39,799 nucleotides of DNA, from positions 1-39,799 of the IMG/VR virus record IMGVR_UViG_3300010233_000088; one strand, 5' to 3'. Source of the stretch: a virus. Below, piece by piece: positions 453 to 38,522 of this stretch. A program made the position numbers and the translations under genes. Positions within the stretch are counted from its first letter, which is position 1; each line of letters begins with the position of its first letter. The notes under the pieces are model-generated. The model ran no database searches. It was not told the DNA's origin and saw only the letters and a list, made by a program, of their open reading frames with translations.

Positions 453-829
453 ATATACCTATGTAGTTTTGTAAAGCTTGGATTGTACCAGCTTATTGTT
501 TTGGGTTTTAGCTTCATTACCGACCTTAAACCTATGCGAATCGTCTTATAACTGTCTGCCGCAAGCAACACAAAATGAAAGTTCTTCCCGTTCTCTAAAG
601 CCAATGCTTGAAGCACGTCAATACGCTTGATGTCAATGCAATGCAAGAACGAGAATGTTTTGTCTGTAAGTGTTAAAAATATCCCAATTCCCCTAATTTC
701 ACTGTCTTTAACAACAATTACTTTGTCAGGATGCCTTTCTAGGGCTTGATCTATCTGCTCTTGAGTAGGTATCAACTCCCTTTGTGGACATTTTGAATAG
801 TAATGGTCAAACAGATATTTGCTTATCAT
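440..829 (-). CDS. Conserved-type phage protein after terminase, possibly degenerate GNAT-like fold
   Basis: 129 residues. The start ATG overlaps the terminase stop (ATGA, 829-826). The layout of alternating strands (VIVVKDSEIRGIGIF, TFSFLHCIDI, FHFVLL) followed by a C-terminal ISWYNP...LHRY recalls the degenerate acetyltransferase-like proteins often found beside phage terminase and portal genes. The acetyl-CoA loop (R/Q-x-x-G-x-G/A) is not clearly visible, so enzymatic activity is doubtful. It lies between the terminase and the Ala-rich protein in the packaging module and is translationally coupled to the terminase. Function unknown. Confidence 0.65.
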   Translation of the reverse strand: MISKYLFDHYYSKCPQRELIPTQEQIDQALERHPDKVIVVKDSEIRGIGIFLTLTDKTFSFLHCIDIKRIDVLQALALENGKNFHFVLLAADSYKTIRIGLRSVMKLKPKTISWYNPSFTKLHRYICPS

Positions 830-2172
830 CGAATCCCCGCAATATCAAACAAGTTATCTGAACGAGATTTACTGCGCCTCATCCCTACATACTTTGTATC
901 TTGCTCTTTCTTAATACCATCAATCAAGCTTACTGCCATTATCAAAGCATCTGCCATATTGGGTGACTTAAAACCTTGCTTCTTCATTTTCTCTTTGCTC
1001 ACCAGTATCCTTCGTTGGTTGTGGTCGTACTCATACCTAAGCGTTCCTAATTCCTCTAACAATGCTTCATCTGTTATGTGCAAATGTCCTTGCAAAAGCA
1101 TGTCTTTAAGCCGGTATGTATTTGCTGTGCGTGGATTACCATAGAACCTGTCTTTGTCATACCCTAACGCTGGATTCCTAAAACCCACAAACGTCTGCAT
1201 ATTGCGTCCTTTAGTAAGCGTATCTAAAGGCCCTGAGCCTATACCATCTTCATCCACTATTGATTTATCAACCTTTTGCTCTGTGTGTACTTTTAGAATC
1301 TCTCCTGTTGTCCAATTCAAGTCTTTGTGATCCCATTGGTTGACATAAACAACTTCCCAATGTAAAGCTCCGTTCTGTCTGATAATCACACTTGCACATT
1401 TATCATCACCGTATCGAGCAATATCAAAACCTGCTATCTTTGTGTTGTAGCCATCCCTTGGAAGATAAATTGCCCTTTTAGCCGCATCAAGCTCTGAATG
1501 AGTGAACACTGAATCTTCTGTCTTGTCTAAAGGCAATCCCAACCAAATATGGTTATAGTCCTCTTGCGACTTCTTCAAACACTCCAAAGCTTCTTTCTTA
1601 AGAGCGTTCGTACAAAAAGGATTGTCGTTGTAATTTAAGTGGATATGTAAACAGTCATCACGATGAACAAAGTTTGCGTAAGCAGGGTCATTGCGCACAA
1701 ACCTGTTCATTGTGAATATTACTTTGGCATTGTCTTTACGAATCGTTGGAATAAGCACATCAAGGGTTTGCTTAGTTAAAGCTTGAGATTCGTCTATCCA
1801 GACTATATCAATACCTTCCATCCCTTGAATGTTAAAAGCTCCTTGCTCCCGAAATCCTCTAAAGTTAATTTCTGTCTTGGTGTCACGATGGATGATTGTC
1901 TTAGCTAATATTGTGAAGTTAAGATTGTACTGCTGGATTAAATCGGTGAGTATTGAGTAAACGGATTCTTTGATTGAGTTCTGGACTTCACGCCCGCATA
2001 CTATTCGGATATTGTATTTCTCGGCAAGGTATAAAATCCACCTTGCGACAGCATGTGACTTTCCACCGCCTCGTCCTCCATCAATCAAGAAATATCTCTT
2101 GTTGTTGAATTGGGTGATTAAAGGCAGAAGCTTATTAGGGACTTGGAGTATACTCGGTAATTCTATTTCCAA
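826..2172 (-). CDS. Terminase large subunit (PBSX/Terminase_3 type)
   Basis: 448 residues. Packaging ATPase and nuclease that threads DNA into the prohead through the portal. Visible motifs: Walker A GGRGGGKS at residues 32-39, Walker B IVWIDE at about 123-128, and a C-terminal nuclease domain with acidic residues in GFDIARYGDD (about 250), VDEDGIGSG and NMADALIMA near the C-terminus. The domain order and length match Terminase_3 plus its C-terminal nuclease. The start is TTG at 2172-2170, seven bases after AGGAG, and overlaps the small subunit gene by 38 nt. No disrupting mutation is seen. Confidence 0.95.
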   Translation of the reverse strand: MEIELPSILQVPNKLLPLITQFNNKRYFLIDGGRGGGKSHAVARWILYLAEKYNIRIVCGREVQNSIKESVYSILTDLIQQYNLNFTILAKTIIHRDTKTEINFRGFREQGAFNIQGMEGIDIVWIDESQALTKQTLDVLIPTIRKDNAKVIFTMNRFVRNDPAYANFVHRDDCLHIHLNYNDNPFCTNALKKEALECLKKSQEDYNHIWLGLPLDKTEDSVFTHSELDAAKRAIYLPRDGYNTKIAGFDIARYGDDKCASVIIRQNGALHWEVVYVNQWDHKDLNWTTGEILKVHTEQKVDKSIVDEDGIGSGPLDTLTKGRNMQTFVGFRNPALGYDKDRFYGNPRTANTYRLKDMLLQGHLHITDEALLEELGTLRYEYDHNQRRILVSKEKMKKQGFKSPNMADALIMAVSLIDGIKKEQDTKYVGMRRSKSRSDNLFDIAGIR

Positions 2173-2404
2173 GGGTAAGCTCCTGTTCTTTTTCTTGAAG
2201 TTTAACCGTCGGCATTTTAGTGACGTTATAATTTCCGTCTATGGTGGTGTGCTGTGGAACGTCTTTACCTAAAACTGCTGCCATTAATTTTATCTTATTG
2301 GCTTCGCTATATTTATGAAAGTTGTCAACAATCTCTTGCCAAAGCTTTCCTATAGCTAGTTCTCTTGCAGTATGTTTTTGTGACGTTAGTCCACCTGTAC
2401 TCAT
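2135..2404 (-). CDS. Probable terminase small subunit
   Basis: 89 residues, immediately upstream of and overlapping the large subunit. The N-terminal half is helical (RELAIGKLWQEIVDNF...KIKLMAAVLG) and the C-terminal half has a short beta segment, NYNVTKMPTVKL, like the C-terminal tail of several small terminases. A GAGG ribosome site sits in a 12-bp palindrome just before the ATG. The assignment rests mainly on position; the DNA-binding HTH typical of small terminases is not obvious. If correct, it recognises the packaging site, which may lie in 2405-2505. Confidence 0.65.
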   Translation of the reverse strand: MSTGGLTSQKHTARELAIGKLWQEIVDNFHKYSEANKIKLMAAVLGKDVPQHTTIDGNYNVTKMPTVKLQEKEQELTLGNRITEYTPSP

Positions 2405-2504: not shown

Positions 2505-2510
2505 ATTATA
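2505..2510 (-). promoter_or_regulatory. Possible -10 box (TATAAT) upstream of packaging genes
   Basis: A perfect TATAAT on the minus strand lies about 100 bases upstream of the small terminase gene, overlapping the end of the preceding mini-gene. No convincing -35 element is seen at 16-18 bp. In AT-rich DNA this is weak evidence, but it is the best promoter candidate between the glycan operon and the late genes. Confidence 0.25.
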
Positions 2511-2664
2511 AAACTCTTCTGGTGGGTCTTACGATGTTTGTCTTGCGGTTCTTACGCATGTTTAAAACGTGGCGTTTCCATTGGCAGAGCCAATGACCAC
2601 AAGTCTTACGAAGTATGGGGCGTTTATTGCAGTATTCGCATATCCTTATTTCAGTTCCAGCCAT
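2506..2664 (-). CDS. Cys-rich zinc-ribbon mini-protein
   Basis: Starting at the ATG at 2664 this is 52 residues: C-x2-C (CEYC), then C-x3-x-C (CGHWLC) and a strongly basic C-terminal tail rich in Lys and Arg. An upstream GTG at 2694 would add 10 residues; neither start has a clear ribosome site. It overlaps the end of the glycosyltransferase gene by 19 nt or more. The Cys/His spacing suggests one zinc site and the basic tail suggests nucleic-acid binding. It is the last gene of the glycan operon. Function unknown. Confidence 0.55.
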   Translation of the reverse strand: MAGTEIRICEYCNKRPILRKTCGHWLCQWKRHVLNMRKNRKTNIVRPTRRVL

Positions 2665-3212
2665 AAAGTTATGCTTTCTTTTAGGATTTTCCACAATGAT
2701 ATTAATTCTACCTTCTTATTGGTGTGAGTAAATTCAATAGGAACTTCGATCATGCTGAAACCTTTTTGCTTGGCAAGTGAAAGTATTTCCAAATCGAATA
2801 ACCAACCATTGCTATACCATTCTGAAAGTGTGTGGCGCTTGAATATCTTTAAACCAGTTTGACTGTCAACTTTCATTCCAAATAATAAAGCTATATAAAG
2901 GCGTGACCAATACGTGATTAGGCGTCTTGACCATCGACCGCTTATTGGCTTCACCCCGCACACAATGTCATAGTCAGCAAGAAACGGTATTAATCGTTTA
3001 ATCATATTGGGATGAATGTCACCATCACCATCGAGGAAACACACAAATTCACCTGTGGCCTGTTTAAGAGCTTCACGCACCGCCCATCCTTTCCCAAGGG
3101 ATTGACGGTTGCTTGATACGATGATCTGGACATTATTAAATATTCCTTCAATCTCTTGTACTAATTCATTTACTTTCACCAAATCTGTTGCGGGAAGGAT
3201 TATTGATAACAT
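2646..3212 (-). CDS. DPM1-like family-2 glycosyltransferase, shortened N-terminal domain
   Basis: 188 residues. Recognisable polyprenyl-phosphate hexose synthase features: GKGWAVREAL, A-T-G-E-F-V-C-F-L-D-G-D-G-D (DXD-like metal site, about 66-70) and VDSQTGLKIF, a hallmark of the dolichol-phosphate mannosyltransferase branch. Such enzymes charge a membrane lipid carrier with a sugar on the cytoplasmic face. The usual first Asp pair (VDDGSxDxT) after strand 2 is missing: the chain jumps from QIIVSSN to SLGKG, so roughly 25 residues normally contacting the nucleotide are absent. Lipid-linked sugar from this protein would be a natural donor for the GT-C enzyme two genes upstream. It may be inactive. 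Confidence 0.8.
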   Translation of the reverse strand: MLSIILPATDLVKVNELVQEIEGIFNNVQIIVSSNRQSLGKGWAVREALKQATGEFVCFLDGDGDIHPNMIKRLIPFLADYDIVCGVKPISGRWSRRLITYWSRLYIALLFGMKVDSQTGLKIFKRHTLSEWYSNGWLFDLEILSLAKQKGFSMIEVPIEFTHTNKKVELISLWKILKESITLWLELK

Positions 3213-3214
3213 AG

Positions 3215-3388
3215 TTAGACCTTATCGAATGTGGATTTTAAGATTGACATAAATGTTTGTAAAGAAAAACCGTTGTAAACTAAATTGCCATTGGGATCTT
3301 TTTCTCCAGTTAACAGTTTCCCGCATTTGCTCTTTTCTACTCCTTCGTAAATAGTGTTGATCGTTTGTGCGATTTCTTGTGCTGTCAT
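3215..3388 (-). CDS. 57-residue mini-protein in the glycan operon
   Basis: ATG at 3388-3386 with a strong AAGGAG ribosome site; 57 codons ending TAA two bases before the next ATG. The sequence begins MTAQEIAQTINTIYEGVEKS and ends with an amphipathic FMSILKSTFDKV. A single Cys, no membrane segment. It fills exactly the gap between the GT-C gene and the DPM1-like gene, which supports it as a real gene. Unrecognised; function unknown. Confidence 0.65.
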   Translation of the reverse strand: MTAQEIAQTINTIYEGVEKSKCGKLLTGEKDPNGNLVYNGFSLQTFMSILKSTFDKV

Positions 3389-3398
3389 TTTTATCTCC

Positions 3399-4709
3399 TT
3401 AGATTAGTATTGTTATTTGCCCACGTTTGAAATTCCAAAGTATTTGCGCGACGGCTTTTTCCTGTCCTGCCGGTATGCACTTTTCTGCTCTTTCTAAATA
3501 TTTTAATGCTTCTTTCTTTTGATTACAATGATGTAAAACTACCGCAATATTATAAAGTACTTTAAATTCGTTTGGGCTTATTTTTAGAGCTTCCATCCAA
3601 AAAAGCAATGCCTCTTGGAATGATTGCTTCTCCCATCTTTTCATTGCCCCTATGTGCCAGCCAAACCATGAGTCTAAACTGTTTACTCGGCTAAATTCAG
3701 TGAGTATGAAATCATCCCTGTATCCGTCAATATAAAACCATGTCTTGCAGGCGTATGCCCCTAAGAGTCCAGCCACCAAATAAGGACTTGAATGAATAAA
3801 TTGAGAAACAACAAACATAAGACCCACATTAGGCAAATATGCATATCTCTCCGCGAGTTCTTGTTGCATACGATAAAGGTTAAGAAAAGGCGCTATCCCC
3901 AAACACCACCAGAGTAAGCCAAAACAAACCATGTCCCATTTGTGCGTTGATACATACCACGCCATTAAAGATACCGTAAATAAACCAAACCAAAATAACC
4001 TGCATAAAGAATACGCTTCTTTGACACGTGAACCCGCAATACTCTCAAGCAATGAGTGATAAAAAGTCGTCTTTATTGGCAACAGTGAATGACTTACATA
4101 GAAACCAAACGTCTTAATCGCAAGTATTATTTTCTTGGGATGAATCTTAGCGTCCTCTGTAAAAACCTCAATCTTGGCTTTCTGTGTTACATTATAACTG
4201 AACCTCCCAAAATTATACATCCATACTAAAGGAGCGAATATTAAAAGTTCAGGACGGCTTGAGCCAAACAAACACAACGGCATAATGAAACCGGAGTTTG
4301 TATAGGTAGCGCCAAGCAACATTAGCCCTCCCATCTCCATAGGTAAAGCTAATGCCCAAACCATCCCTAAAGATGCTAAAACATAATTCCTTCCGCTTAT
4401 CCAGACAGCGCCTTGATTATTGATAGGATTGAAAGCGAAAAGCAAAGAAGCAATGAAGCTAATACTATTAGAACCAAAGCCCAAATATATACCAACACAA
4501 ACCAACGTGTGAAGAAATAAAGTAAGCGCATGATCTATCTCCGGTTTGCTTTTTAATTTACCCTCAAACACCCAAAAGGCGTATTTCCAAACATTGATTG
4601 GGCGGTTGCGTTGATAAGAAGGATTGTCGTCGCTCACATAACCATATTTTATTGTCTTTAAATAAAAAAGTATGTTTGCTAATAAAATTATGCAGACTTT
4701 TTCAAACAT
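3399..4709 (-). CDS. TMTC-like GT-C membrane glycosyltransferase with C-terminal TPR repeats
   Basis: 436 residues. An N-terminal membrane helix is followed by GYVSDD (residues 23-28), the acidic first-loop motif of GT-C enzymes. Further on are the conserved loop AVWISGRNYVL and many hydrophobic helices up to about residue 330 with LAERYAYLPNVGL. A cytosolic or periplasmic tail has two TPR-like helical pairs (about 355-415: FQEALLFWMEALKISPNEFKVLYN...). This order matches the TMTC/DUF1736 O-mannosyltransferase-like family. Such enzymes move sugar from a polyprenyl-phosphate donor onto protein or glycan outside the membrane. A polytopic GT-C enzyme is very unusual in a 40-kb phage. It overlaps the upstream mini-gene by 22 nt. 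Confidence 0.8.
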   Translation of the reverse strand: MFEKVCIILLANILFYLKTIKYGYVSDDNPSYQRNRPINVWKYAFWVFEGKLKSKPEIDHALTLFLHTLVCVGIYLGFGSNSISFIASLLFAFNPINNQGAVWISGRNYVLASLGMVWALALPMEMGGLMLLGATYTNSGFIMPLCLFGSSRPELLIFAPLVWMYNFGRFSYNVTQKAKIEVFTEDAKIHPKKIILAIKTFGFYVSHSLLPIKTTFYHSLLESIAGSRVKEAYSLCRLFWFGLFTVSLMAWYVSTHKWDMVCFGLLWWCLGIAPFLNLYRMQQELAERYAYLPNVGLMFVVSQFIHSSPYLVAGLLGAYACKTWFYIDGYRDDFILTEFSRVNSLDSWFGWHIGAMKRWEKQSFQEALLFWMEALKISPNEFKVLYNIAVVLHHCNQKKEALKYLERAEKCIPAGQEKAVAQILWNFKRGQITILI

Positions 4710-4897
4710 TGGATACTTGACAACCTTTCAAGAGATTCTTTTATACGATCATTTTCATTCCTAATAAATACTTTTATACAATTTTTACAAATTTGACCAC
4801 AAAAAACTTTAAATTCAGCCATTCTATGACAGTCACTGTATTGGCATTCATTTTCTCGTTTTGGGTCTATAACGCTTCCATCAGTGATGTAGGGCAT
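4688..4897 (-). CDS. 69-residue Cys/His mini-protein, possible zinc ribbon
   Basis: Contains C-x4-C-x-H (CQYSDCH), then C-x3-C-x2-C (CGQICKNC), arranged like a zinc ribbon, followed by a charged helix. AAGGAAATTAA precedes its ATG. It overlaps the radical-SAM gene by 17 nt and the GT-C gene by 22 nt, so it is translationally tied to both. Similar Cys-rich mini-genes sit at 2506 and 5921 in the same operon. No family recognised. Confidence 0.65.
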   Translation of the reverse strand: MPYITDGSVIDPKRENECQYSDCHRMAEFKVFCGQICKNCIKVFIRNENDRIKESLERLSSIQCLKKSA

Positions 4898-5924
4898 TTA
4901 ATTTCCTTAATTTTTCCTCCATAACCAACCTTGCCCCTCTTAATAAATATTTAAAATCATCAAAATCTTTTATGTCTTTAAATTTGTGATACCAAAATTC
5001 TGGATAATGCAATACGTCATAAACCATTGGTATATATTTATGCCCAAGAGAATTAGGGTCAGGACGAGTACGAGGTGGCGAATAAACGGATGCCTGAGCA
5101 GTTTTAGCATATCCCTTCCTAAGTAAATAATGAATCATGTCCAAAGTATTTTGTGCGTCTTTTTCAGTTTCCCATTCATATCCAAACATGCTAGTCAAAT
5201 GGGGGTAAAGACCTGCCTCGCTCATCTTTTTTATGATTTCAATAGTAGTTTGTGCGTTCTGACCTTTTTGAATCTTATTTAAAGTTACTTGATTGGCGCT
5301 TTCGACTCCTACCAAGATAAACCTGAAACCAGCATCAGCCATCATTTTATAATCAATATTGACAGGCTTCATGTTACAGCCTAAGCGTATTTTCTTGTTA
5401 CGTCCATTAATTTTCATCTTCAAACAAAACTCTGTCAACCAATCCCCCACAGGGAATGTGCCTGAATCATCAAAGACCTCTTTATAACCATTGGCAATTA
5501 AATCGTCTATTTCTTCCATGACGTGGTCAACACTACGAATACCTCTTTTTTCGCCTTCTTGTAATTTTTTGGTATCGACACAGAAAACGCATTTCCCGTA
5601 CCAGCATAGATTTGACACCATCATGTGGGTAGCAGGATGCTTGCGATAATTGCCGTATCTTTGCCATCGTGGATTTTTGGCGTCTGTAAATATGCGGTCT
5701 GGATAGGGTAGTTTTTCAAAAGGAACATCTATTTGAAAATCATCTTTAATTTCTTTATCTACCGGCATCATTCCAAAACTAACGCTTTCTTTCCCCCAAA
5801 TAACTTGATGTTTTTGATTTCTTAAATAAGTCGCATAAGCGGCTAAATGAGCCGGGAATACCCAAACGGGCTTCTCAAACTGACGCTGCTGATTATAGGG
5901 GCTTAATGGAAATAAATATCTCAT
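4881..5924 (-). CDS. Radical-SAM enzyme of the B12-binding type (N-terminal domain shortened)
   Basis: 347 residues from the ATG at 5924, chosen because it forms an ATGA overlap with the upstream gene; an in-frame start 33 bases further up is less likely. The iron-sulphur motif is CWYGKCVFC (C107, C112, C115), a CX4CX2C variant of CX3CX2C. Downstream are the typical GVES and (M)FGYEWETEKD segments. The first 50 residues (FPAHLAAYATYLRNQKHQVIW) resemble the end of a cobalamin-binding domain, but the DxHxxG cobalamin motif is absent. Enzymes of this group methylate or rearrange unactivated carbons; in this operon a sugar or lipid-carrier substrate is likely. Reaction unknown. Confidence 0.85.
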   Translation of the reverse strand: MRYLFPLSPYNQQRQFEKPVWVFPAHLAAYATYLRNQKHQVIWGKESVSFGMMPVDKEIKDDFQIDVPFEKLPYPDRIFTDAKNPRWQRYGNYRKHPATHMMVSNLCWYGKCVFCVDTKKLQEGEKRGIRSVDHVMEEIDDLIANGYKEVFDDSGTFPVGDWLTEFCLKMKINGRNKKIRLGCNMKPVNIDYKMMADAGFRFILVGVESANQVTLNKIQKGQNAQTTIEIIKKMSEAGLYPHLTSMFGYEWETEKDAQNTLDMIHYLLRKGYAKTAQASVYSPPRTRPDPNSLGHKYIPMVYDVLHYPEFWYHKFKDIKDFDDFKYLLRGARLVMEEKLRKLNALHH

Positions 5925-6202
5925 CCTTCCCACTCCACCTTTAGCCATCCACAACATATTTTACATAGTAAATTATTTCTCATATACGTATTACCTTTTG
6001 TTTCTGCGCTACAGTTCTCACAAACAAACCTTTTAGAAGCATAATCCATGTTCTCACACTGCCTTATTAAAACGCTTCGACAAATTGTTTTACTATAATC
6101 ATCCACACAAGCAGAAGAAAATACAGAATCTTCGCCCTCTACAAATACCCTTGAATCTTGGGGAAATTTATTTAATTCCTCAATGAGTTCACTTATTTTC
6201 AT
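5921..6202 (-). CDS. Small protein: helical N-terminus plus C-terminal zinc ribbon
   Basis: 93 residues from the ATG at 6202 (ATGA overlap with the dehydratase stop; MGRA further up is outside the coupling pattern). The N-terminus KISELIEELNKFPQDSRVFVEG resembles a widespread small phage/bacterial protein that typically reads (S)xELIxxLxxxPxDAxVxV. The second half has C-x2-C (CENC) and C-x2-C (CKIC) forming a probable zinc ribbon. Function unknown. Its stop overlaps the radical-SAM start. Confidence 0.7.
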   Translation of the reverse strand: MKISELIEELNKFPQDSRVFVEGEDSVFSSACVDDYSKTICRSVLIRQCENMDYASKRFVCENCSAETKGNTYMRNNLLCKICCGWLKVEWEG

Positions 6203-7212
6203 AGCCCTACCCACTCAGGATGTTCCATTGTCCACTTAACTGTACGTTCAAGTGATTCTTCAAGGTTCTTAGGGAATGCATGCCCGTAATTGCGAAGTTT
6301 CTCACCGCTTAATCCGTAGAATGGGTCGTGACCAGGACGGCTTGTTTCTGCGTCAACCATTTTATACTTTAATTCTTCGCCCATAATATTGGCAATCAAT
6401 AGTGCCATGTCTAAGTTACTTATTTGCTTTCCTCCAACAATATTAAATCTCTCCGGTCGGTTTGCTTGCGGATATAAGGGGACAGGAACGTTCTGAAGCA
6501 TGAACAGTAAAGCGTCAGAGGTGTTGCGGGCGTGTAGCCAGAACCTTGCTCCGGAGATTGTCTTTGTTGGGTCTGAGTGAATCGTAACAGTTTCACCTAA
6601 AATTATTTTCCTTATTACCATTGGAATAAATTTTTCATGATCTTGCATCTCCCCAAATGTGTTCATAATGTTTGTAAGGATCACCGGAACCCCATAAGTG
6701 CGCCAGTAGCTTATTGCTATTGCGTCTTGTGATGCTTTGCTTGCGCTATAAGGGTTTGAAGGTAATATGGGAGACCATTCAGGATGATTATGCACTCCAT
6801 CCGTTGGGCCGTAAACCTCATCAGTGCCTATTTGTATAAACTTTATTGGCTTTGCCTGCCGTGCATATTCAAGCATGTTTAACGCAATATTTACATTATT
6901 TTGAACGAAAGGTACGGGGTCTGTGATACTGCGGTCTACATGTGAGGCTGAACAAAAATTTACGATATAATCCACATTTCCAATAGTCCCTCTAAGTACT
7001 GAAGAAATAGGAGCATTTAAATCATGAGTAAATATTCTTACTCTACTTTTATCTTTCTGGTAATGTTCAGAAAATGTTATCCTTTCTGACATCCCTTTAT
7101 GGTTAAAACTGTCAAGGCAAACCACTTCCCAGTCTGTGTTAACAAGAATATGGCTTAAACAATGCGAACCTATAAAACCTCCTGCCCCAGTTATAAGAAT
7201 CCTTTTAGTCAT
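6199..7212 (-). CDS. dTDP-glucose 4,6-dehydratase-like SDR (RmlB family)
   Basis: 337 residues, extended short-chain dehydrogenase. NAD site GAGGFIG (9-15); the family signature SASHVDRSI; catalytic TDE (130-132, in TDEVYG) and YSASK (Tyr155, Lys159); EKFIPMVI downstream. The TDE triad distinguishes 4,6-dehydratases from plain 4-epimerases, so conversion of an NDP-hexose to its 4-keto-6-deoxy form is likely. The product is the normal substrate for NDP-sugar C-methyltransferases such as the one at 11173-12225. No RmlA-type nucleotidyltransferase is in the window, so the activated sugar must come from the host. Overlaps the upstream GT2 by 8 nt. Confidence 0.88.
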   Translation of the reverse strand: MTKRILITGAGGFIGSHCLSHILVNTDWEVVCLDSFNHKGMSERITFSEHYQKDKSRVRIFTHDLNAPISSVLRGTIGNVDYIVNFCSASHVDRSITDPVPFVQNNVNIALNMLEYARQAKPIKFIQIGTDEVYGPTDGVHNHPEWSPILPSNPYSASKASQDAIAISYWRTYGVPVILTNIMNTFGEMQDHEKFIPMVIRKIILGETVTIHSDPTKTISGARFWLHARNTSDALLFMLQNVPVPLYPQANRPERFNIVGGKQISNLDMALLIANIMGEELKYKMVDAETSRPGHDPFYGLSGEKLRNYGHAFPKNLEESLERTVKWTMEHPEWVGL

Positions 7213-8086
7213 TTGGCCTTTCTATAACTTTCGAGTATCTTCTTGCTACGTGATTTCGAAAAAACTTTGAAAGTGACCGGAGAACCAGAGAAGGAACCAA
7301 CATGGCCGTCAGCGTATAAAACCAAAACTTCCATGACAATAATACCTTCTTGTCGTTTTTTACGTGCAGACATATTTCCCCCCAAAGTAAATGTGACGCT
7401 CTATTCTTTAAAGTAATAAATACAGGAAAATCTTGGTAATTTTGTCCTAATAAATCAATCCAGTTTTGGGTAGGTGATTCGGTGTAATAAGAGGATTTTG
7501 TTCCTGTATTAAATCCAGGCATGTAACGAGAAGCCACGGTGTCGTACTCAATCATTGTCCAACGATATTTGGGCAGGTACTGCGATACTATAGATGGCAT
7601 CTCCACAAAGATTTTATTTGTCCCGACTATGTCCATTTTTCTAAACGCCATTCCTGACGGACAACAGCTACTTGTCAAAATGTTAGGGTCGCGACAAACG
7701 CCAATCGCACCTTTGTGACCATGTAAGAAGTAATACTTGTAGGCAGCAATGATTCCTATTTCTTTATTCTCGTTGAAGATTTTAACAATATCACTTAAAA
7801 CTTTTGGATGTGTTAAAATATCATCGGCACACAAATATAATATATACCGAGTTTCACATAATGTCATTAACTTTTCTAAGTTTTTTCCTATCCCTAAATT
7901 AAATGGGTTTGATATGACACGAACGCCAAAACTTAAAGCTATCTCCGCCGTATTGTCCGAAGAGCAGTCATCACAGACAAGGATTTCCTTTAACGGGTAC
8001 TCTTGGTCTAATGCGCTTTCTATCGCTTCTGCAATAACATCTTGGTTATTATGAGAAGGAATTGCTATAGTTATTTTATTTTTCAT
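7205..8086 (-). CDS. Family-2 glycosyltransferase, paralogue of 8322-9194
   Basis: 293 residues. GT-A fold: AIPSHNN, CDDCSSDNT (first Asp pair) and CADD (metal-binding DXD equivalent, about residue 98). A hydrophobic segment near residue 245-270 and a basic tail suggest membrane association. It shares blocks with the gene two places upstream: (N/C)PSG(L/M)AFRK, TNK(M/I)F(V/I)E, (K/E)YDTVA(V/S)R, SP..(E/N)W and WGEIC/WDEIC. The two are therefore a diverged tandem duplication. The start ATG overlaps the preceding stop (ATGA). Substrate unknown; addition of a sugar to a lipid-linked or surface glycan is expected. Confidence 0.85.
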   Translation of the reverse strand: MKNKITIAIPSHNNQDVIAEAIESALDQEYPLKEILVCDDCSSDNTAEIALSFGVRVISNPFNLGIGKNLEKLMTLCETRYILYLCADDILTHPKVLSDIVKIFNENKEIGIIAAYKYYFLHGHKGAIGVCRDPNILTSSCCPSGMAFRKMDIVGTNKIFVEMPSIVSQYLPKYRWTMIEYDTVASRYMPGFNTGTKSSYYTESPTQNWIDLLGQNYQDFPVFITLKNRASHLLWGEICLHVKNDKKVLLSWKFWFYTLTAMLVPSLVLRSLSKFFRNHVARRYSKVIERPND

Positions 8087-8325
8087 TTATAAAAATCTTT
8101 CTCAAAAAAAATATAAAAAACAAATGTGATATTACATACACAGATTAAGACCCTTCTTTGCATTTTTTTAAATCCAAATTCAATATTTACAATATGAAAA
8201 TTAGAGTGATCTGGATTTTCTATTTGAACACAAATCCTAACTGCTTTGTATTGTGTAAAGAAAGCATCAAATCCTATAACAGAAATGTTAGGATGGTCTG
8301 ATTCTGGAATAAAACGAAATCTCAT
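8083..8325 (-). CDS. 80-residue protein between two GT2 paralogues
   Basis: Start ATG at 8325 chosen because it forms ATGA with the preceding GT2 stop and its own stop forms ATGA with the next GT2 start. The N-terminal part is beta-rich (RFRFIPESDHPNISVIGFDAFF...), and the C-terminus is hydrophobic (VLICVCNITFVFYIFF), probably a single membrane helix. No family recognised. The position between two paralogous glycosyltransferases suggests a role as a partner or membrane anchor, but this is inference. Confidence 0.6.
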   Translation of the reverse strand: MRFRFIPESDHPNISVIGFDAFFTQYKAVRICVQIENPDHSNFHIVNIEFGFKKMQRRVLICVCNITFVFYIFFEKDFYK

Positions 8326-9194
8326 TTCCTTTTTACCTCCCTTGTTGTCCATTTTCCCCACGTTGCCCTGTAAATATCCGGAATTTTAAGTAGTATTGGT
8401 GTCGGTATAATAAGTGCCACCAGACCAAAAAACCAAAGGCAAGGATTGAATATATTATCAGGATTGACCCATACAAAATTACAGATCTCATCCCACACCG
8501 CCTTTCTGGTGAAGTAATTGCTGATTTGAATTAAGGATGTGAAGTCATTGGATTCCCAGCCAAGCTTTGCCCATTCAAGAACAGGGGAAGAAGTCCACAT
8601 TTTTTTATAATAGTCTTTAGATCGGGCGGTGCTCTTGTGGACACGTACGGCAACGGTGTCGTATTTTAGAATTGAATATAACCATCCTCTTTCAATAACA
8701 GATTGGACTAAAAAAGGCGCTTCAATAAACATTTTATTTGTTAATACTAATTTTCCAACGTAATTTATCTTTCCTGGTAGAGTTGTGAATTTACCATCTA
8801 AAATGCTCTTTCTAAATGCCAACCCCGATGGATTATTAGCAATTTCGAATATATTATCACCACGCCAAGCCCTTACCGGTCTTTTATCTCCATCTACAAA
8901 CTGATAATACCATCTTGACACATGACCCATTCCAGTATGAGTTTCAAAACATTTTACAATATCTTCAATTACGTGCTTGTCTGTAAAATAGTCGTCTGCA
9001 CAAAGCAACACTATAATGTCCCCTTTAGCGTATGATATTGCTCGGTTAAACGATTCCCCGCTTCCAACGCCTTCAAGATCATCGTAAACAACAGTTTCAA
9101 TGTTCTTGTATGTCTGCATGTTAATACTTGCGCGGGCTTCTGGTAAAAATTGATCCTGTTTATAATTGGCTATACATACGCTAACGGCGAGCAT
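8322..9194 (-). CDS. Family-2 glycosyltransferase
   Basis: 290 residues. SVCIANYKQDQFL, YDDLEG (first Asp pair in a shortened loop), and LCADDYF (metal site, about residue 68-71) place it in GT2. The middle carries NPSGLAFRKS and TNKMFIEAPF, shared with the paralogue at 7205. The C-terminus (CLWFFGLVALIIPTPILL) is hydrophobic and ends in a basic tail, suggesting peripheral membrane attachment. It overlaps the upstream GT2 by 14 nt. The acceptor is unknown. Confidence 0.85.
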   Translation of the reverse strand: MLAVSVCIANYKQDQFLPEARASINMQTYKNIETVVYDDLEGVGSGESFNRAISYAKGDIIVLLCADDYFTDKHVIEDIVKCFETHTGMGHVSRWYYQFVDGDKRPVRAWRGDNIFEIANNPSGLAFRKSILDGKFTTLPGKINYVGKLVLTNKMFIEAPFLVQSVIERGWLYSILKYDTVAVRVHKSTARSKDYYKKMWTSSPVLEWAKLGWESNDFTSLIQISNYFTRKAVWDEICNFVWVNPDNIFNPCLWFFGLVALIIPTPILLKIPDIYRATWGKWTTREVKRK

Positions 9195-9864
9195 AGATTA
9201 TCCCCCTAATTACCAATAGAAATATAAGCCCCAAAGTAAGTATTGGATGTCTTAACAACTTCTTCCACTTCCCCTTTTCAGTATAAACAGTCACACACCT
9301 GTACCAAATATTCAAACAACGATCATCGGGATTAAGTTCTTTGTATTTATCCATACTCTTTGAGTAGTACGCTTTCTTCTGGCAATACTTATAAAATGGG
9401 ATGTCGTCATGGTGATAAAGGACTGATTTGCTTACTGCCCTTAATCCAATTATTCTATTACCAAAGTCTGCATCTTCCGGCCCATGCAATTCTTCGTTAA
9501 AAAGGGGGCAACAACGCCTTAATACCGCTTTAGGCACATCTACAGACGTTCCGGTCAAAAAAGACCTCTCAAATGCCCTTATACGCCCAAAGAATGACTT
9601 TGCTACGATGATTTCAGGGATATATACAGATGTGTAACCTGTACTTATTAGATTTTCACATTCTTTAACTACACCAGGGCCCAAAGACTGATCGCTGTCT
9701 AACCAAATAATGATGTCCCCTTTTGCTTGGCGTATTGCCATATTCCTTTGAACCGATCTTTCAAGTCCCTGGTTGATTTCAATGTATTCAACATTGAGGG
9801 GCAAAGAATTTCTTAAAACGGATGTGTCCCTGCCATGGTTAGCACAAATTATGCTTGTTTTCAT
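9181..9864 (-). CDS. Family-2 glycosyltransferase with C-terminal membrane anchor
   Basis: 227 residues. GT-A features: SIICANHGRD, LERSVQRNMAIRQAKGDIIIWLDSD (DSD metal site, about 57-59), GPEDADFGNRI (the ED catalytic-base region) and a final hydrophobic helix PILTLGLIFLLVIRGIIYARR. Shorter than the two neighbouring GT2 enzymes and a separate lineage. Stop and start are coupled to the FAD enzyme upstream by ATGA and to the downstream GT2 by a 14-nt overlap. Confidence 0.83.
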   Translation of the reverse strand: MKTSIICANHGRDTSVLRNSLPLNVEYIEINQGLERSVQRNMAIRQAKGDIIIWLDSDQSLGPGVVKECENLISTGYTSVYIPEIIVAKSFFGRIRAFERSFLTGTSVDVPKAVLRRCCPLFNEELHGPEDADFGNRIIGLRAVSKSVLYHHDDIPFYKYCQKKAYYSKSMDKYKELNPDDRCLNIWYRCVTVYTEKGKWKKLLRHPILTLGLIFLLVIRGIIYARR

Positions 9865-10988
9865 ACATCAAAACCCATCATAATTGATTGAGTAACCCCG
9901 CAAAATTCCCACTTACCATACCGGCCTGTACTGGTAATATCTCTTTCCTTAAGCCATTGAATTTCCTTGGAAACATCTTCTTTGTTGTACTGCCACGTAT
10001 ACGCACACTCAACCCAATCAATGCAAATCGTTTCAGGTTTTTTAATCCATCCCCAATCCATAAGCTCTTGACAGACTTCCCTTGCTATGAGATTCGTTTC
10101 TATGCCTTTAATTTTTGTATTATGGTACGCGATTTCAACGCTTAATCCTACTCGATTAGGCGGAGCTTTTGATTCATCAACATTTGTATAAAAACTAACG
10201 CGGTGGAATCCTGATTTACAAAATGGTATATATAGCCAATGTTCTTTGGGAAAATTAACGTTTGATTCTGCACCAACATTTATTACTAAAACAGAGGTGT
10301 AAGGAAGATTTGATTCTTGACCGCATAATTCCATACATTTGTTTAATGGGATTGTTGAAATTAACCTTCCGTATTCTTCCGAAGTACCATCCTCAAATTC
10401 AACCTCTCTGTCATCCGTATGTATCTTTGTTGCTTTCTTGTTATATTGAATATCACACTTACTCGCCATCTTCTCAACTAAATCATCTAATCCGTTAACA
10501 GGATCACAAAAGGTACTTACCCATCCTGTTCCTGTTTTGGGTGTTTTATAATTATCTTGTGGTAATACGGAGCTCATTAAACCAGCCGTATATTTTTCAT
10601 TAAATGGGTGAAAAAACAAATTACATTGTTCTTTCCCAAAATTAGAAACAAGCCACCCATCAAAATATTGAGGAGACCAATCTCCTTTGAATTCTTCCAA
10701 ATCTTTTGAAGCCGTAGATTGAAAAGGATAAGGGAAAATATGGTTATAATAAACTCCTGCCTTACGCTCGTATTCTTTAACCTCAACTAAACTCTTGATG
10801 TATTCAAGTCCCTTGTCTTTACCAAAAAGGTAATGTGGCCCCCCGTTTGAGAACCTAAAACCGTCCTTCACATAGTCCGTACAAATACCGCCTGCGTGAT
10901 CGGTTTTCTCGTAAATGGTTGCCCCTGTCTTAATGCCCGCTGCCATACCTGAAAATCCTGCCCCAATTATGATAGTTTTACTTTGCAT
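9861..10988 (-). CDS. FAD-dependent oxidoreductase/mutase of the UDP-galactopyranose mutase-like group
   Basis: 375 residues. N-terminal dinucleotide fold GAGFSGMAAGI (8-18) followed by YEKTDHAGGICTDY, then GGPHYLFGK, which recalls the H/GPH-x-F region of galactopyranose mutases; the C-terminus GRYGKWEFCGVTQSIMMGF recalls the FAD-closing G-R-x-G motif. The family converts pyranose to furanose sugars or acts as amine/protoporphyrinogen oxidase; in this operon the sugar role is the likelier. The true mutase active-site arginines cannot be checked by eye. Overlaps the 68-residue gene by 22 nt. Confidence 0.8.
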   Translation of the reverse strand: MQSKTIIIGAGFSGMAAGIKTGATIYEKTDHAGGICTDYVKDGFRFSNGGPHYLFGKDKGLEYIKSLVEVKEYERKAGVYYNHIFPYPFQSTASKDLEEFKGDWSPQYFDGWLVSNFGKEQCNLFFHPFNEKYTAGLMSSVLPQDNYKTPKTGTGWVSTFCDPVNGLDDLVEKMASKCDIQYNKKATKIHTDDREVEFEDGTSEEYGRLISTIPLNKCMELCGQESNLPYTSVLVINVGAESNVNFPKEHWLYIPFCKSGFHRVSFYTNVDESKAPPNRVGLSVEIAYHNTKIKGIETNLIAREVCQELMDWGWIKKPETICIDWVECAYTWQYNKEDVSKEIQWLKERDITSTGRYGKWEFCGVTQSIMMGFDV

Positions 10989-11173
10989 TTAAACTCCAGT
11001 TTGTGATAACTTATATTGTAATTATTGTTTACGTCTTTTTTTATTTTAATACCATCGACCCTAAACTCTTCTCCATCTTCTGTTCTAGCATATAGTCCAC
11101 TCTTTTGATCTAATTTCAAAAGTTGTTTTACATAATCGCCAACTGTGGCTTTTACTATAAATATTTCTTTCAT
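10967..11173 (-). CDS. 68-residue mini-protein in the glycan operon
   Basis: Begins MKEIFIVKATVGDYVKQLLKLD and continues with alternating charged and hydrophobic residues suggestive of a small beta-rich domain. The start overlaps the methyltransferase stop (TAATG) and the end overlaps the FAD gene by 22 nt. One Cys; no membrane segment. Unrecognised. Confidence 0.6.
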   Translation of the reverse strand: MKEIFIVKATVGDYVKQLLKLDQKSGLYARTEDGEEFRVDGIKIKKDVNNNYNISYHKLEFKCKVKLS

Positions 11174-12225
11174 TAAATTATCCTTTCAAATCTATCATTC
11201 TTGTTAGGACGTAACTTTTTAATCTTTACGGATATTTCATCAAATAGGTTGTGAGCGCAAATGATGTTTAAATCCCTTGGGTCTTTAGAAAAATGTTCTG
11301 CGCTTACTATTGGGGAATTTATGCCTGGAATAAACTTCCCTTGCTTTAAATGGTTGTCATCAACTACGTATTCGGGTTTTAGGTTATAATAATTTAGTAA
11401 AACTATTTCGCTGGCGCTTGCTCCATAAACAACAAAATTACCTTGCGTTTCCTTGCATGGCCTTGCCATACCTAGCCGTGCCGTTCCACGCCTTGCCGTA
11501 TCGATTTTTCTAATTTCAAATAAATAGCTCTCTCTGTGCATTGGTGCTGTTTTAAAACTCACAACTTCAACACCACATTTTTGAGCAAGCACCATCATGC
11601 TTTGAGGTGTAAAATAAGAAATATGCTCATGGTAAAAATTATCTAAGCGGGCGGGTGTGGTAAGTATATAAATTCTCCCCTTGTCTTTAAGTAGTTTGGA
11701 AGCTTCAATTAAGAATGTCTTGGGGTCGTCATTATGGGCAAACACATTAAAAGCGGTAATTAAATCAAACTTCATTCCAATATCTGCCTGTAAAGGGAAA
11801 AATTCGTTTAAAACATGAACTTCTCTTTTAATTGCTATTTCATAAAGGTCTTTACATGGCTCTATCCCCATGACAAACCATCCCTCCATTTTTAAACAAC
11901 TCAATAGAGTTCCGTCATTACATCCTATATCAATAGCGGTGTTGCCATAATGATTGAGTGATTGGGAAAAATCTATTAAAAAATCAAGATGAGATATAGA
12001 TGTTCCTGTTTGGTAAAGATAGTCCTTAAACAACAATTCCCGATCAACCGCTACGCTTAACTGTTTATGTGTACATAACAGACATTCATTGACTACTAAT
12101 GGAAATTTAACATCTTCTTTTTCAGGAGAAACTTTTAAATTATTAACTAGAGGCATTAATCCCATATCACAGAAAATATTTAATTCTTTATTCCCACACA
12201 CCAAACATGATTTAAGTTCCTTCAA
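11173..12225 (-). CDS. NDP-sugar C-methyltransferase with zinc-binding N-terminus
   Basis: 350 residues. Cys4 zinc module (C7, C10, C48, C51), SAM-binding motif DIGCNDGTLL (99-108), the FYHEHISYF segment (about 197-205), HRES in place of the usual HGGS (230-233), and a C-terminal domain starting NFVVYGAS and ending with VSAEHFSKDP. This is the TylCIII/NovU-type architecture that methylates C-3 or C-5 of dTDP-4-keto-6-deoxy sugars, the product of the RmlB-like enzyme. It is about 60 residues shorter than typical members because the linker before the C-terminal domain is replaced by a low-complexity TARRGTARLGMARP segment. Start is TTG at 12225, six bases after GGAG. Confidence 0.85.
   Translation of the reverse strand: MKELKSCLVCGNKELNIFCDMGLMPLVNNLKVSPEKEDVKFPLVVNECLLCTHKQLSVAVDRELLFKDYLYQTGTSISHLDFLIDFSQSLNHYGNTAIDIGCNDGTLLSCLKMEGWFVMGIEPCKDLYEIAIKREVHVLNEFFPLQADIGMKFDLITAFNVFAHNDDPKTFLIEASKLLKDKGRIYILTTPARLDNFYHEHISYFTPQSMMVLAQKCGVEVVSFKTAPMHRESYLFEIRKIDTARRGTARLGMARPCKETQGNFVVYGASASEIVLLNYYNLKPEYVVDDNHLKQGKFIPGINSPIVSAEHFSKDPRDLNIICAHNLFDEISVKIKKLRPNKNDRFERII
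11441..11500. repeat. Pentanucleotide-periodic tract inside the methyltransferase gene
   Basis: On the plus strand the 60 bases fall into twelve 5-base units, ten of them beginning CC (CCTTG, CCATA, CCTAG, CCGTG, CCGTT, CCACG...). On the coding strand this is a run of NNNGG units. Because 5 is not a multiple of 3, the tract reads through all frames and encodes Ala/Arg/Gly-rich peptide. It is much more GC-rich than its surroundings and sits exactly at an expected domain linker. Confidence 0.75.
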
Positions 12226-12682: not shown

Positions 12683-12850
12683 TTACATCTCCATAACATC
12701 ATATATCTCATGTTCATCCAATGCCTCAAACACTCGCCTTGCAGTAGGAATATCTGCTGCTTGAATTATTCTATCTCTTATTTCATCTCGCACATGATAT
12801 CCCAATCCATTAACTATAGAAACTTCATAACGTATTCTGTATTGTTTCAT
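12683..12850 (-). CDS. 55-residue mini-protein in cassette array
   Basis: ATG at 12850 six bases after GGAGGG in the shared leader; ends TAA at 12685-12683. Sequence begins MKQYRIRYEVSIVNGLGYHV, then a charged helical stretch rich in Arg, Ala and Glu. No motif recognised. It has its own copy of the repeated leader (12851-12874). Confidence 0.6.
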   Translation of the reverse strand: MKQYRIRYEVSIVNGLGYHVRDEIRDRIIQAADIPTARRVFEALDEHEIYDVMEM

Positions 12851-12874
12851 ATCCCTCCTTTAACAATGCCGTTT
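12851..12874 (-). promoter_or_regulatory. Repeated mini-gene leader (one of six near-identical copies)
   Basis: Minus-strand core CGGCATTGTTAAAGGAGGG ending in a strong ribosome site directly before an ATG. Near-identical copies lie at 12851-12874, 13119-13142, 13309-13332, 13577-13600 and 13846-13869, with a diverged one at 12652-12680. Each copy heads one small gene. Conservation extends about 10 bases beyond the ribosome site, more than translation alone needs. Confidence 0.8.
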
Positions 12875-13118
12875 AATCTCTAATAATTTTTAAAGCGTGT
12901 TCAATCTCACATCTAAAAGACCCAATATCCTTGAGCATGGTAAGAAAAGCTTCTAATCTTGCACTATCAAACCAATATTTTTGTGAACCATACCCACTGT
13001 CAAAAGATAATATTCCAGCGGTAGATTGGTACTCCATTTTAGCTACATGACTTGGACATCCTTCTTGTCTGCAATCATCCGAGCATGAATATTTAAACTC
13101 TCTTACTGTAGTACTCAT
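12873..13118 (-). CDS. 81-residue Cys-rich protein, duplicate copy A
   Basis: Identical at protein and DNA level to the gene at 13331-13576. N-terminal part has C-x3-C-x4-C (CSDDCRQEGC) and a His (PSHVAKMEYQ), then a beta-rich segment and a C-terminal helix. It may bind one metal ion. Its ribosome site lies in the shared leader at 13119-13142. No family recognised. Confidence 0.75.
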   Translation of the reverse strand: MSTTVREFKYSCSDDCRQEGCPSHVAKMEYQSTAGILSFDSGYGSQKYWFDSARLEAFLTMLKDIGSFRCEIEHALKIIRD

Positions 13119-13140
13119 ACCCCTCCTTTAACAATGCCGT

Positions 13141-13308
13141 TTAAATAAACCATTCATATTTTTCATATTTATTACATTTTCTACATTTCTTCCAAGAGAA
13201 TTTTTCTCCTTCGATTGCATGATGAACAACTGAATTTAATTCTATTGACCATTCATGCTCACAACACTGCTCATTCCATGCTTTTTTAATAAAATTAAAT
13301 AAACTCAT
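13141..13308 (-). CDS. 55-residue Cys/His mini-protein, zinc-ribbon-like
   Basis: ATG at 13308 after GGAGGGAT of the leader; stop TAA at 13143-13141. Contains CC-x-H (CCEHEW), HH and C-x2-C (CRKC), enough for a zinc site resembling short phage zinc-ribbon proteins (EHEWS...CRKCNKYEKYEW). It is the single-copy gene lying between the two identical copies of the 81-residue gene. Confidence 0.65.
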   Translation of the reverse strand: MSLFNFIKKAWNEQCCEHEWSIELNSVVHHAIEGEKFSWKKCRKCNKYEKYEWFI

Positions 13309-13602
13309 ATCCCTCCTTTAACAATGCCGTTTAATCTCTAATAATTTTTAAAGCGTGTTCAATCTCACATCTAAAAGACCCAATATCCTTGAGCATGGTA
13401 AGAAAAGCTTCTAATCTTGCACTATCAAACCAATATTTTTGTGAACCATACCCACTGTCAAAAGATAATATTCCAGCGGTAGATTGGTACTCCATTTTAG
13501 CTACATGACTTGGACATCCTTCTTGTCTGCAATCATCCGAGCATGAATATTTAAACTCTCTTACTGTAGTACTCATACCCCTCCTTTAACAATGCCGTTT
13601 AA
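13305..13602. repeat. 298-bp perfect direct repeat, copy 2
   Basis: Second copy of the 298-bp unit (see 12847-13144). The absence of any difference, including third codon positions, means either a recent duplication or ongoing gene conversion; an assembly collapse or expansion error is also possible. Confidence 0.92.
13331..13576 (-). CDS. 81-residue Cys-rich protein, duplicate copy B
   Basis: Second, identical copy of the 12873-13118 gene, with the same leader and ribosome site (13577-13600). Two identical copies may raise dosage. The copies also provide homology for expansion and contraction of the array. Confidence 0.75.
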   Translation of the reverse strand: MSTTVREFKYSCSDDCRQEGCPSHVAKMEYQSTAGILSFDSGYGSQKYWFDSARLEAFLTMLKDIGSFRCEIEHALKIIRD

Positions 13603-14590: not shown

Positions 14591-14923
14591 TTAGTCAGCG
14601 ACCTTCCTTGTCAAATCCGTCATATAATCATATTCACGGGCTTTATCAATCTCCCAAATGCCAGGTTCTAAAGTTATATTGTCATGGCGTTCCTTAATTG
14701 CACAATAAACTTCCGTAGGAACATCATTTTTGAGCCATAATACACCATTAGAGTCTTCGAATAACTCAACACCTTCTTTGGCTTCCAGTAGGTGAAAATT
14801 CCCAGATGTTTCCGAATCTGCCAAACGGTAGCATCCCTTATCGAATAATTTTACCTTCTTTAATCCTTCTGGTAATTTACAAGATTTCATTAACAAACAT
14901 TCTCCATGATAATAAGTTTTCAT
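14591..14923 (-). CDS. Conserved-type small phage protein paired with the repeat protein
   Basis: 110 residues. Pattern YYHGECLLMKSCKLPEGLKKVK...LADSETSGNFHLLE...GIWEIDKAREYD...RKVAD fits a beta-barrel-like family that usually reads QGDvLl...LPxG...GExTGHxHxl...pGxYxvxrqREYxpexxRxVxD and is often encoded next to DUF6745-type proteins, as here. Start ATG forms ATGA with the stop of the repeat protein and is preceded by GGAGGGCAT. Function of the family is not known to me. Confidence 0.75.
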   Translation of the reverse strand: MKTYYHGECLLMKSCKLPEGLKKVKLFDKGCYRLADSETSGNFHLLEAKEGVELFEDSNGVLWLKNDVPTEVYCAIKERHDNITLEPGIWEIDKAREYDYMTDLTRKVAD

Positions 14924-35974: not shown

Positions 35975-35975
35975 T
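35921..35975. repeat. 55-bp inverted copy of 39745-39799
   Basis: Exact reverse complement of the last 55 bases of the window. Together with the 33-bp match of bases 1-33 to 35972-36004, it defines how the genome closes. The two matches overlap by only ACCT (35972-35975), the junction microhomology. Confidence 0.92.
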
Positions 35976-37609: not shown

Positions 37610-37842
37610 TATTAAGCGAAGCCCAAGCATTAAAGAAGAATATGCTTGCTACTTTCGAATCAGCGCATGGCAAAGAAGTGATGAAGTTTATTAAGAGGAT
37701 AGGAAATTATTATTGCACGGTTTACGATTCAGGCGATACAAATGAGATCATCGCAAGGGACGCGAATAGAAGACTGATACAGACCTTGGAGTCTATAATT
37801 AACTTAACGCCGGAACAGATTGTAAAACTAACGGAGGAATGA
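37606..37842 (+). CDS. Bbp19-like small phage protein
   Basis: 78 residues: LATFESAHGKEVMKFIKRIGNYYCTVYD...NEIIARDANRRLIQTLESIINLTPEQI. Matches the small family next to portal genes in many podoviruses, in which F-x-x-x-G-x-x-vL-x-x-L and an (E/D)-x3-x3-(G/A)-(R/N)R-x-(L/V) segment recur. Start ATG forms ATGA with the portal stop. Role unknown, presumably head assembly. Confidence 0.78.
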   Translation: MILSEAQALKKNMLATFESAHGKEVMKFIKRIGNYYCTVYDSGDTNEIIARDANRRLIQTLESIINLTPEQIVKLTEE

Positions 37843-37843
37843 T

Positions 37844-38424: not shown

Positions 38425-38433
38425 GAGGGAGTT

Positions 38434-38508
38434 ATGAGCAAGACAGGACGTACAGGTCACAGGGTAAAAATTAAGATACCAACCAATCCAAGACAACCAA
38501 ACGGTTAA
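38434..38508 (+). CDS. 24-residue basic peptide
   Basis: ATG three bases after AGGAGGGAGTT, coding MSKTGRTGHRVKIKIPTNPR then QPNG and a TAA stop. Very basic, with no acidic residues. The strong ribosome site and the fit between two genes support translation, but the size makes it uncertain. A DNA-binding or scaffold-associated role would be a guess. Confidence 0.45.
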   Translation: MSKTGRTGHRVKIKIPTNPRQPNG

Positions 38509-38522
38509 GAAAGAAGGAAAAA

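Follow-up and report, generated by a model that had tools for sequence, protein, structure and literature searches.

A conserved glycan gene island beside the terminase genes in a lineage of small podoviruses

An island of nine glycan enzyme genes lies between the early region and the terminase genes of IMG/VR record IMGVR_UViG_3300010233_000088, the whole of which (39,799 bases) was analysed and is called the window here. The island is a conserved trait of a lineage of small podoviruses, in which dozens of uncultured members carry it; it is frequent but not universal, and not an oddity of one phage. It is probably a phage-borne operon for surface-glycan remodelling that taps host precursors, and its likely benefit would be an altered receptor surface, by which rival phages are excluded or binding to debris is stopped. 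Most known cases in which phages alter the surface sugars of their hosts come from two sources, the small gtr cassettes of enterobacterial prophages and large marine myoviruses. New here is a lineage of small podoviruses with a glycan island of 8-12 kb in a fixed place, the core of which is a pair made up of a radical-SAM (S-adenosylmethionine) protein and a presumed GT-C type membrane glycosyltransferase; for neither did a tblastn search find a match in 50,697 deposited phage records. Whether even a minimal phage can have glycan remodelling among its core functions could be tested in this lineage, which also opens a way into an unassigned radical-SAM and lipid-linked-sugar chemistry shared with Omnitrophota, other PVC-type bacteria and archaea.

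Layout and enzymes of the island

The nine genes at 2646-12225 are all encoded on the minus strand, span 9.6 kb and sum to 8,589 nt, which is 22% of the genome. Counted from 12225 down to the gene of the large terminase subunit (TerL), 13 of the 16 junctions between neighbours were overlaps of 1-49 nt and the other three were gaps of 2, 10 and 101 nt; translational coupling is therefore plausible. Scans for promoters and terminators gave results at chance level only, and PADLOC returned only a weak methyltransferase match. An earlier note on this DNA had described the region as the glycan operon of a podovirus and had named nine enzymes in it. All nine are present, in one overlapping chain between early genes and the genes of the small (TerS) and large terminase subunits, and that description is supported; the GT-C assignment comes from the fold, as Pfam recognises only a TPR in that protein. 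The four family-2 glycosyltransferases (GT2s) that had been listed were all present, but the one at 2646-3212 belongs to the polyprenyl-phosphate type represented by GtrB and Dpm1. The 62-residue open reading frame (ORF) at 2506-2694 had also been counted in the island, wrongly as it appears, since it matched no glycan family and is a small ORF conserved beside TerS.

The RmlB-type dehydratase has the GxxGxxG, TDE and YxxxK motifs of the extended SDR (short-chain dehydrogenase/reductase) fold, and its closest solved relative is a dTDP-glucose 4,6-dehydratase (PDB 6bi4, E 4e-47). Specificity for dTDP-glucose, from which the earlier note had the pathway branch off, is likely but unproven, the score being under the dTDP-glucose equivalog cut-off (TIGR01181, 205.9 vs 365.1 bits). 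RmlB-like genes are common among phages (267 records). The FAD enzyme is best described as mutase-like only: it scored 57.9 bits with PRK07208.1-4 (cut-off 389), lay below the cut-off of the UDP-galactopyranose mutase (UGM) family TIGR00031 (31.5 bits vs 303.75) and matched eukaryotic-type UGMs in the PDB at E 1e-11. Three weak matches to it were found in the 50,697 deposited records, and a single-sequence scan, in which patterns were exact, found it in one contig only.

The sugar C-methyltransferase contains the Zn-binding, SAM and C-terminal PF08484 domains with the YxEH motif and CxxC pairs kept, and matched D-mycarose 3-C-methyltransferase (PDB 4rv9) at E 2e-25. The deposited phages yielded seven weak matches; no relative was found in the viral loci examined, the single-sequence scan included. 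Among the viral contigs examined, the branched-chain sugar predicted in the earlier note, which would arise by methylation of a dTDP-4-keto-6-deoxy sugar, can thus be a matter of the present member only, and a branched sugar is therefore not the purpose of the lineage.

Three of the GT2s (starting at 9181, 8322 and 7205) end in hydrophobic segments, which suggests that they are membrane-associated. A five-member alignment profile of the fourth matched GtrB sll0501 (E 1.5e-5), dolichol-phosphate-mannose synthase (E 2.7e-5) and ArnC. Together with the GT-C protein, this GT2 would give a recognisable mechanism.

The radical-SAM/GT-C core

The radical-SAM gene was found at 54 viral loci and the GT-C gene at 53. 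The three cysteines of the radical-SAM cluster, C118, C123 and C126, were invariant in an alignment of 24 sequences. The phage proteins have lost most of the B12-binding domain and lack about 100-150 residues that their full-length cellular relatives (about 490-530 residues) have. In the GT-C protein, a DD motif after the first helix was invariant in an alignment of 43 sequences.

An AlphaFold model of the GT-C protein had a mean pLDDT of 92.8. When the whole model was searched with Foldseek, TPR proteins dominated, and ArnT, at rank 34, was the sole GT-C match among the matches listed. With the TPR part removed, TM-scores above 0.3 were obtained, among the matches listed, only for ALG9, ArnT, two oligosaccharyltransferase chains and a GPI-transamidase chain; all others were below 0.22. 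No match at E<=0.001 was found in a library of viral structures, and Pfam and NCBIfam searches of cellular relatives gave only TPR or weak matches. A GT-C fold with the polyprenyl-type enzymes ALG9 and ArnT as best matches is the best reading of the model, and not proof, because the E-values of the fold matches are weak.

In close pairs, the ratio of nonsynonymous to synonymous substitution rates (dN/dS) was 0.034-0.042 for GT-C, 0.12-0.24 for radical SAM and 0.02-0.05 for TerL; these figures come from few pairs, and some dS values were saturated. Strong purifying selection clearly acts on GT-C, and the radical-SAM protein is its obligate-looking partner.

Conservation in the lineage

A search with TerL yielded about 20 relatives, most of them 58-86% identical, and a second search added further ones. 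Gene maps were made of seven long relatives (G001-G004 and G006-G008, 37.0-40.9 kb) and of L167, a phage contig from a genome bin. Independent metagenome contigs showed the order FAD-GT2-GT2-GT2-RmlB-rSAM-GTC-GT2-TerS-TerL again, with 44-80% identity. Of the 44 distinct GT-C proteins, those with judgeable neighbours being counted, 34 of 38 had radical SAM no more than 3.5 kb upstream and 32 of 37 had TerL downstream; a Dpm1-like GT2 was found near 25 distinct GT-Cs. The islands of the relatives measure about 8-12 kb and make up 21-30% of each genome.

Two types of island could be told apart. Type A, FAD-GT2-GT2-GT2-RmlB-rSAM-GTC-GT2(Dpm1), was seen in the window, G001, G002, L124/L126 and L167. 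Type B was seen, with small differences, in G003, G004, G007 and G008 and reads epimerase/DegT-methyltransferase-like-GT4-GT2-GT2-unknown-GT2(Dpm1)-GT2-SDR-rSAM-GTC; the island of G006 is intermediate between the two. In a Pfam check of G003, the putative methyltransferase and a gene with a P-loop-like motif matched no family.

A recent horizontal insertion, or bacterial DNA mis-joined to the phage, was considered and rejected: the order is kept in independent contigs at 44-80% protein identity, and the composition is alike, both the GC content of the island (0.35-0.41) and its third-position GC being within the range of the other genes of the genome. Continuity with the flanking phage genes, which the earlier note had named as its own test, is supported at the level of contigs, by the recurrence of the island-TerL order in independent ones.

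Some loci deviated from these patterns. In L167, at 10001-10510, an inserted HNH-endonuclease-like gene separates the intact radical-SAM gene from a short duplicate of its start. In other viral contigs of up to 95 kb (L069, L078-L080, L086, L090, L097, L109 and L110-L119), radical SAM has no closely similar GT-C as its neighbour; in L111-L119 it is mostly accompanied by a GT2 like that at 9181. Early and late blocks are oppositely oriented around TerL or after the island in L014, L149 and L156, as a result either of real rearrangement or of chimeric assembly. The TerL proteins of L070 (13706-15130) and L099 diverge in their N-terminal part (about 50% identity, with different segments matching), which suggests a module swap beside the island.

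Cellular relatives and host

Relatives of the radical-SAM protein with 29-46% identity were found in genomes of Omnitrophota, Kiritimatiellae, Verrucomicrobia, Planctomycetes, DPANN and Thermoplasmata. Of the 26 cellular loci that could be judged, 10 had a Dpm1-like GT2 at a distance of 1.7-2.3 kb on the upstream side; where the loci were read, one further GT2 stood between it and radical SAM or was fused to it. The genes of this cellular cluster of Omnitrophota, other PVC-type bacteria and DPANN/Thermoplasmata are homologous to those of the phages and follow the type-B order (G003, G004). The cellular radical-SAM protein, however, has a full B12 domain and in no case a GT-C neighbour, whereas in the phages most of the B12 domain is lost and the gene is joined to GT-C.

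Among 334 genomes of the Omnitrophota phylum, 9 contained GT-C relatives at E<1e-25, all of them cellular homologues; none of 241 genomes of a third phylum did, and the 380 genomes sampled from the Saccharibacteria phylum yielded none beyond the phage contig itself. A prepilin motif occurred within about 1.5 kb of the GT-C homologue in 6 of 9 Omnitrophota loci, compared with 0 of 12 other cellular loci (about 217 kb). These pilin clusters are a lead towards pilus or protein glycosylation. The closest genome-bin relative, L167 (RXKC01000030.1), is a phage contig in a GTDB Saccharibacteria bin, possibly a hint at the host or possibly a binning error.

Proposed function

Four families of supply and transport genes were absent from the window and its seven long relatives: nucleotidyltransferase (PF00483; controls positive in 14 of 14 genomes), GtrA (PF04138; 7 of 14), Wzx-type flippase (PF01943; 13 of 14) and initiating transferase (PF02397; 9 of 14). 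The absence of a nucleotidyltransferase from the window agrees with the earlier note, and the reliance on host nucleotide sugars drawn from it there is likewise supported. Nucleoside diphosphate (NDP) sugars, lipid carriers and flippases of the host would therefore be needed if the pathway works as proposed.

In the proposed pathway, the RmlB-type dehydratase and the mutase-like FAD enzyme, joined in the window only by the C-methyltransferase, would make unusual nucleotide sugars from host-made NDP-hexose, and the three membrane-associated GT2s would transfer these to a lipid-linked glycan of the host. The GtrB/Dpm1-like GT2 would load one sugar onto polyprenyl phosphate, a host flippase would turn the product outward, and the GT-C/TPR protein would pass the sugar to an acceptor of the cell envelope on the outer side of the cytoplasmic membrane. 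The radical-SAM protein probably modifies the sugar, either as such or when lipid-linked. The infected cell would thereby present a changed receptor surface and exclude rival phages, or progeny would be kept off debris. Modification of the host surface had been among the aims considered probable in the earlier note, and it is supported here as the likely one.

Several points weigh against surface-glycan remodelling. The Foldseek E-values of the GT-C model were weak (0.06-1.4) with TM-scores of 0.38-0.46, the matches to ALG9, ArnT and oligosaccharyltransferase obtained with the TPR part removed had TM-scores of 0.35-0.46 at E 0.2 to 2.7, and Pfam names only TPR in 3399-4709. No chemistry is assigned to the radical-SAM step. 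The TerL relatives L014-L016 have no island upstream of TerL. Neither an integrase nor lysogeny genes were seen in the window; stable serotype conversion of the lysogenic type is therefore unsupported, and any exclusion would need to take effect in the course of a single lytic cycle.

Alternative explanations

The GT-C protein might instead use type IV pilins, or other proteins that the host exports, as acceptors of the lipid-linked sugar and thus cap the pilus as a receptor. The prepilin motifs beside the Omnitrophota homologues point this way, as do TfpO and TfpW of Pseudomonas, which glycosylate pilins so that the modified pilus blocks phage binding and pilus phages are evaded (PMC11841053). 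The likeness to TfpW/TfpO, compared by description only, is that of a membrane glycosyltransferase; these are, however, host genes and not phage genes. The pilin contexts were seen in a single phylum, beside homologues that scored only 102-181 bits; cellular GT-C/TPR proteins form a broad family, no pilin gene is present in the phage, and linkage to pilins was seen only for the cellular homologues. We regard capping of pilins as unlikely. Rather unlikely, too, is a lineage-wide form of this idea, in which a cellular Dpm1-GT2-radical-SAM cassette and a GT-C/TPR protein of the pilin-cluster type would form a module for glycosylation of pilin-type proteins at the outer face, serving as a receptor-capping weapon against rivals. 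If this were true, a bacterial anti-phage trick, the sugar-capped receptor, would have been turned by a phage against its rivals.

Virion glycosylation, the other aim put forward in the earlier note, would have the GT2s attach sugars to capsid or tail proteins while these are in the cytoplasm, as has been proposed for some mycobacteriophages. The large size of the islands and their content of GT2s and sugar-modifying enzymes would suit such a role, the active sites of GT2s face the cytoplasm, where virions are assembled, and the putative glycosyltransferases of one mycobacteriophage have been read as a sign of capsid glycosylation (PMC11256854). The most conserved members of the island are, however, the outward-facing GT-C protein and the polyprenyl-phosphate GT2, from which virions in the cytoplasm would be out of reach, and the other GT2s end in hydrophobic segments. 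Since the GT-C active site is predicted to face outward, on the far side of the membrane, envelope modification is favoured and virion glycosylation appears distinctly unlikely. A role in auxiliary metabolism, with the island serving host adhesion or symbiosis and not the exclusion of rivals, would fit the Saccharibacteria bin of L167 and the adhesion or symbiosis function claimed for the O-antigen sugar genes of Patescibacteria phages (PMC12911398). This is a single bin, however, the binning of phage contigs is unreliable, and the window showed no lysogeny genes; the explanation is very improbable. Glycosyltransferases are also used by phages for DNA hypermodification. Those of the island are, however, of membrane and lipid-carrier types, and no genes for the synthesis of modified bases turned up in general family scans, which leaves this explanation with hardly any weight.

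Comparison with known systems

Surface-glycan remodelling by the island would resemble the working of the GtrABC cassettes of Shigella and Salmonella phages, in which a GtrB-type polyprenyl-phosphate GT2 is likewise carried in a phage genome. The presumed GT-C protein would be the counterpart of the polytopic, type-specific membrane glycosyltransferase of these cassettes, which uses a polyprenyl-P-sugar. GtrB has been characterised in structure and mechanism (PMC4728340). The island differs from GtrABC in having no GtrA-type flippase, more sugar enzymes, a radical-SAM partner and a TPR part on GT-C; it is placed next to terminase instead of in a prophage attachment region, and its GtrB-type GT2 is without the membrane helices of GtrB. 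Because GtrA is absent, it may be called Gtr-like in its working but not a GtrABC cassette.

The lipopolysaccharide or O-chain islands of pelagimyophages and cyanophages also contain many glycosyltransferase and deoxy-sugar genes, and exclusion of co-infecting phages has been proposed for them; in pelagimyophages, the lipopolysaccharide genes lie in hypervariable islands, some of which contain radical-SAM cassettes (PMC7029224). Those islands belong to large myoviruses and are hypervariable, whereas those described here occupy a fixed place in podoviruses of 37-41 kb and have a conserved core. In Patescibacteria phages, 46 O-antigen sugar genes including rmlB have been reported (PMC12911398). 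In view of these two groups, the statement of the earlier note that phages rarely carry more than three genes of this kind was too strong. No description of this lineage or of the radical-SAM/GT-C core was found in the open-access literature.

Genome, assembly and further features

The features of the window are listed in Table 1. Genes for tail tubular proteins (phrog_376 and phrog_394), a T7-type head-tail adaptor (phrog_332), an internal virion protein and a major head protein identify the virus as a podovirus. The early region (12.3-18 kb) encodes an Erf-type annealing protein, an HNH protein and small genes.

Table 1. Features of the window, by position
Feature	Position	Strand	Support or remark
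TerL, neighbour anchor of the island	826..2172	-	Terminase_3 87 bits; phrog_2, phrog_3717; relatives 46-86% identical
Putative TerS	2135..2404	-	position and size; no family match
62-aa ORF, kept beside TerS in relatives	2506..2694	-	no glycan-family match
GT2, polyprenyl-phosphate type (GtrB/Dpm1/ArnC-like), without membrane helices	2646..3212	-	PF00535 45 bits
57-aa ORF in chain, no function assigned	3215..3388	-	ORF list
Membrane glycosyltransferase, putative GT-C type, with C-terminal TPR	3399..4709	-	TPR_1 26.3 bits; AlphaFold model
69-aa Cys-rich ORF in chain	4688..4897	-	ORF list
Radical-SAM protein, C-x4-C-x2-C, HpnJ/B12-radical-SAM-like core	4881..5957	-	PF04055 57 bits
97-aa ORF in chain, no function assigned	5921..6214	-	ORF list
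RmlB-type nucleotide-sugar 4,6-dehydratase	6199..7212	-	PF16363 146.8 bits
GT2, C-terminal hydrophobic segment	7205..8086	-	PF00535 86.7 bits; 42-64% identity in syntenic relatives
GT2, C-terminal hydrophobic segment	8322..9194	-	PF00535 40.7 bits; 40-61% identity in relatives
GT2, C-terminal hydrophobic segment	9181..9864	-	PF00535 35.9 bits; 44-67% identity in relatives
FAD enzyme, UDP-galactopyranose-mutase/PRK07208 type	9861..10988	-	PF01593, NAD_binding_8
68-aa ORF in chain, no function assigned	10967..11173	-	ORF list, overlaps
Sugar C-methyltransferase, TylC3/TcaB9/NovU type, TTG start	11173..12225	-	PF08421, PF13489, PF08484
Assembly-inverted segment	35972..39799	.	ends repeat 35921-35975 and 1-33; major capsid gene split

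One end of the record appears to have been assembled in the wrong orientation. Positions 39745-39799 are the reverse of 35921-35975 (55 bases) and positions 1-33 the reverse of 35972-36004 (33 bases). The remainder of the major head protein gene at 35291-35975 (minus strand) gave a profile match that begins at residue 59, and the missing N-terminus was found at 39575-39799 (plus strand); in the relatives, the genes from portal to capsid share the terminase strand. A genuine inversion of 35,976-39,744 was rejected, as it would split the capsid gene and the relatives carry the segment in line. For these reasons the inversion of about 3.8 kb is taken to be an artefact of assembly or amplification, and the inverted repeats at the ends point to a chimera that arose in a de Bruijn graph or during amplification. 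In its correct form, the genome probably has a map of about 39.7 kb that closes to a circle and carries every gene on the same strand. The glycan island is untouched by the inverted segment.

Between 12317 and 13869, small early genes follow near-identical leaders (AACGGCATTGTTAAAGGAGGG, minus strand), which are present in six copies at a spacing of 190-270 bases. This run of early genes includes an exact duplication of 298 bases (12847-13144 and 13305-13602). A DUF6745 protein of 420 residues (14920-16182) contains an array of a four-residue repeat (SQLY/SQLS/NQLD) at 15512-16004, made up of 28 registered copies of a 12-base unit.

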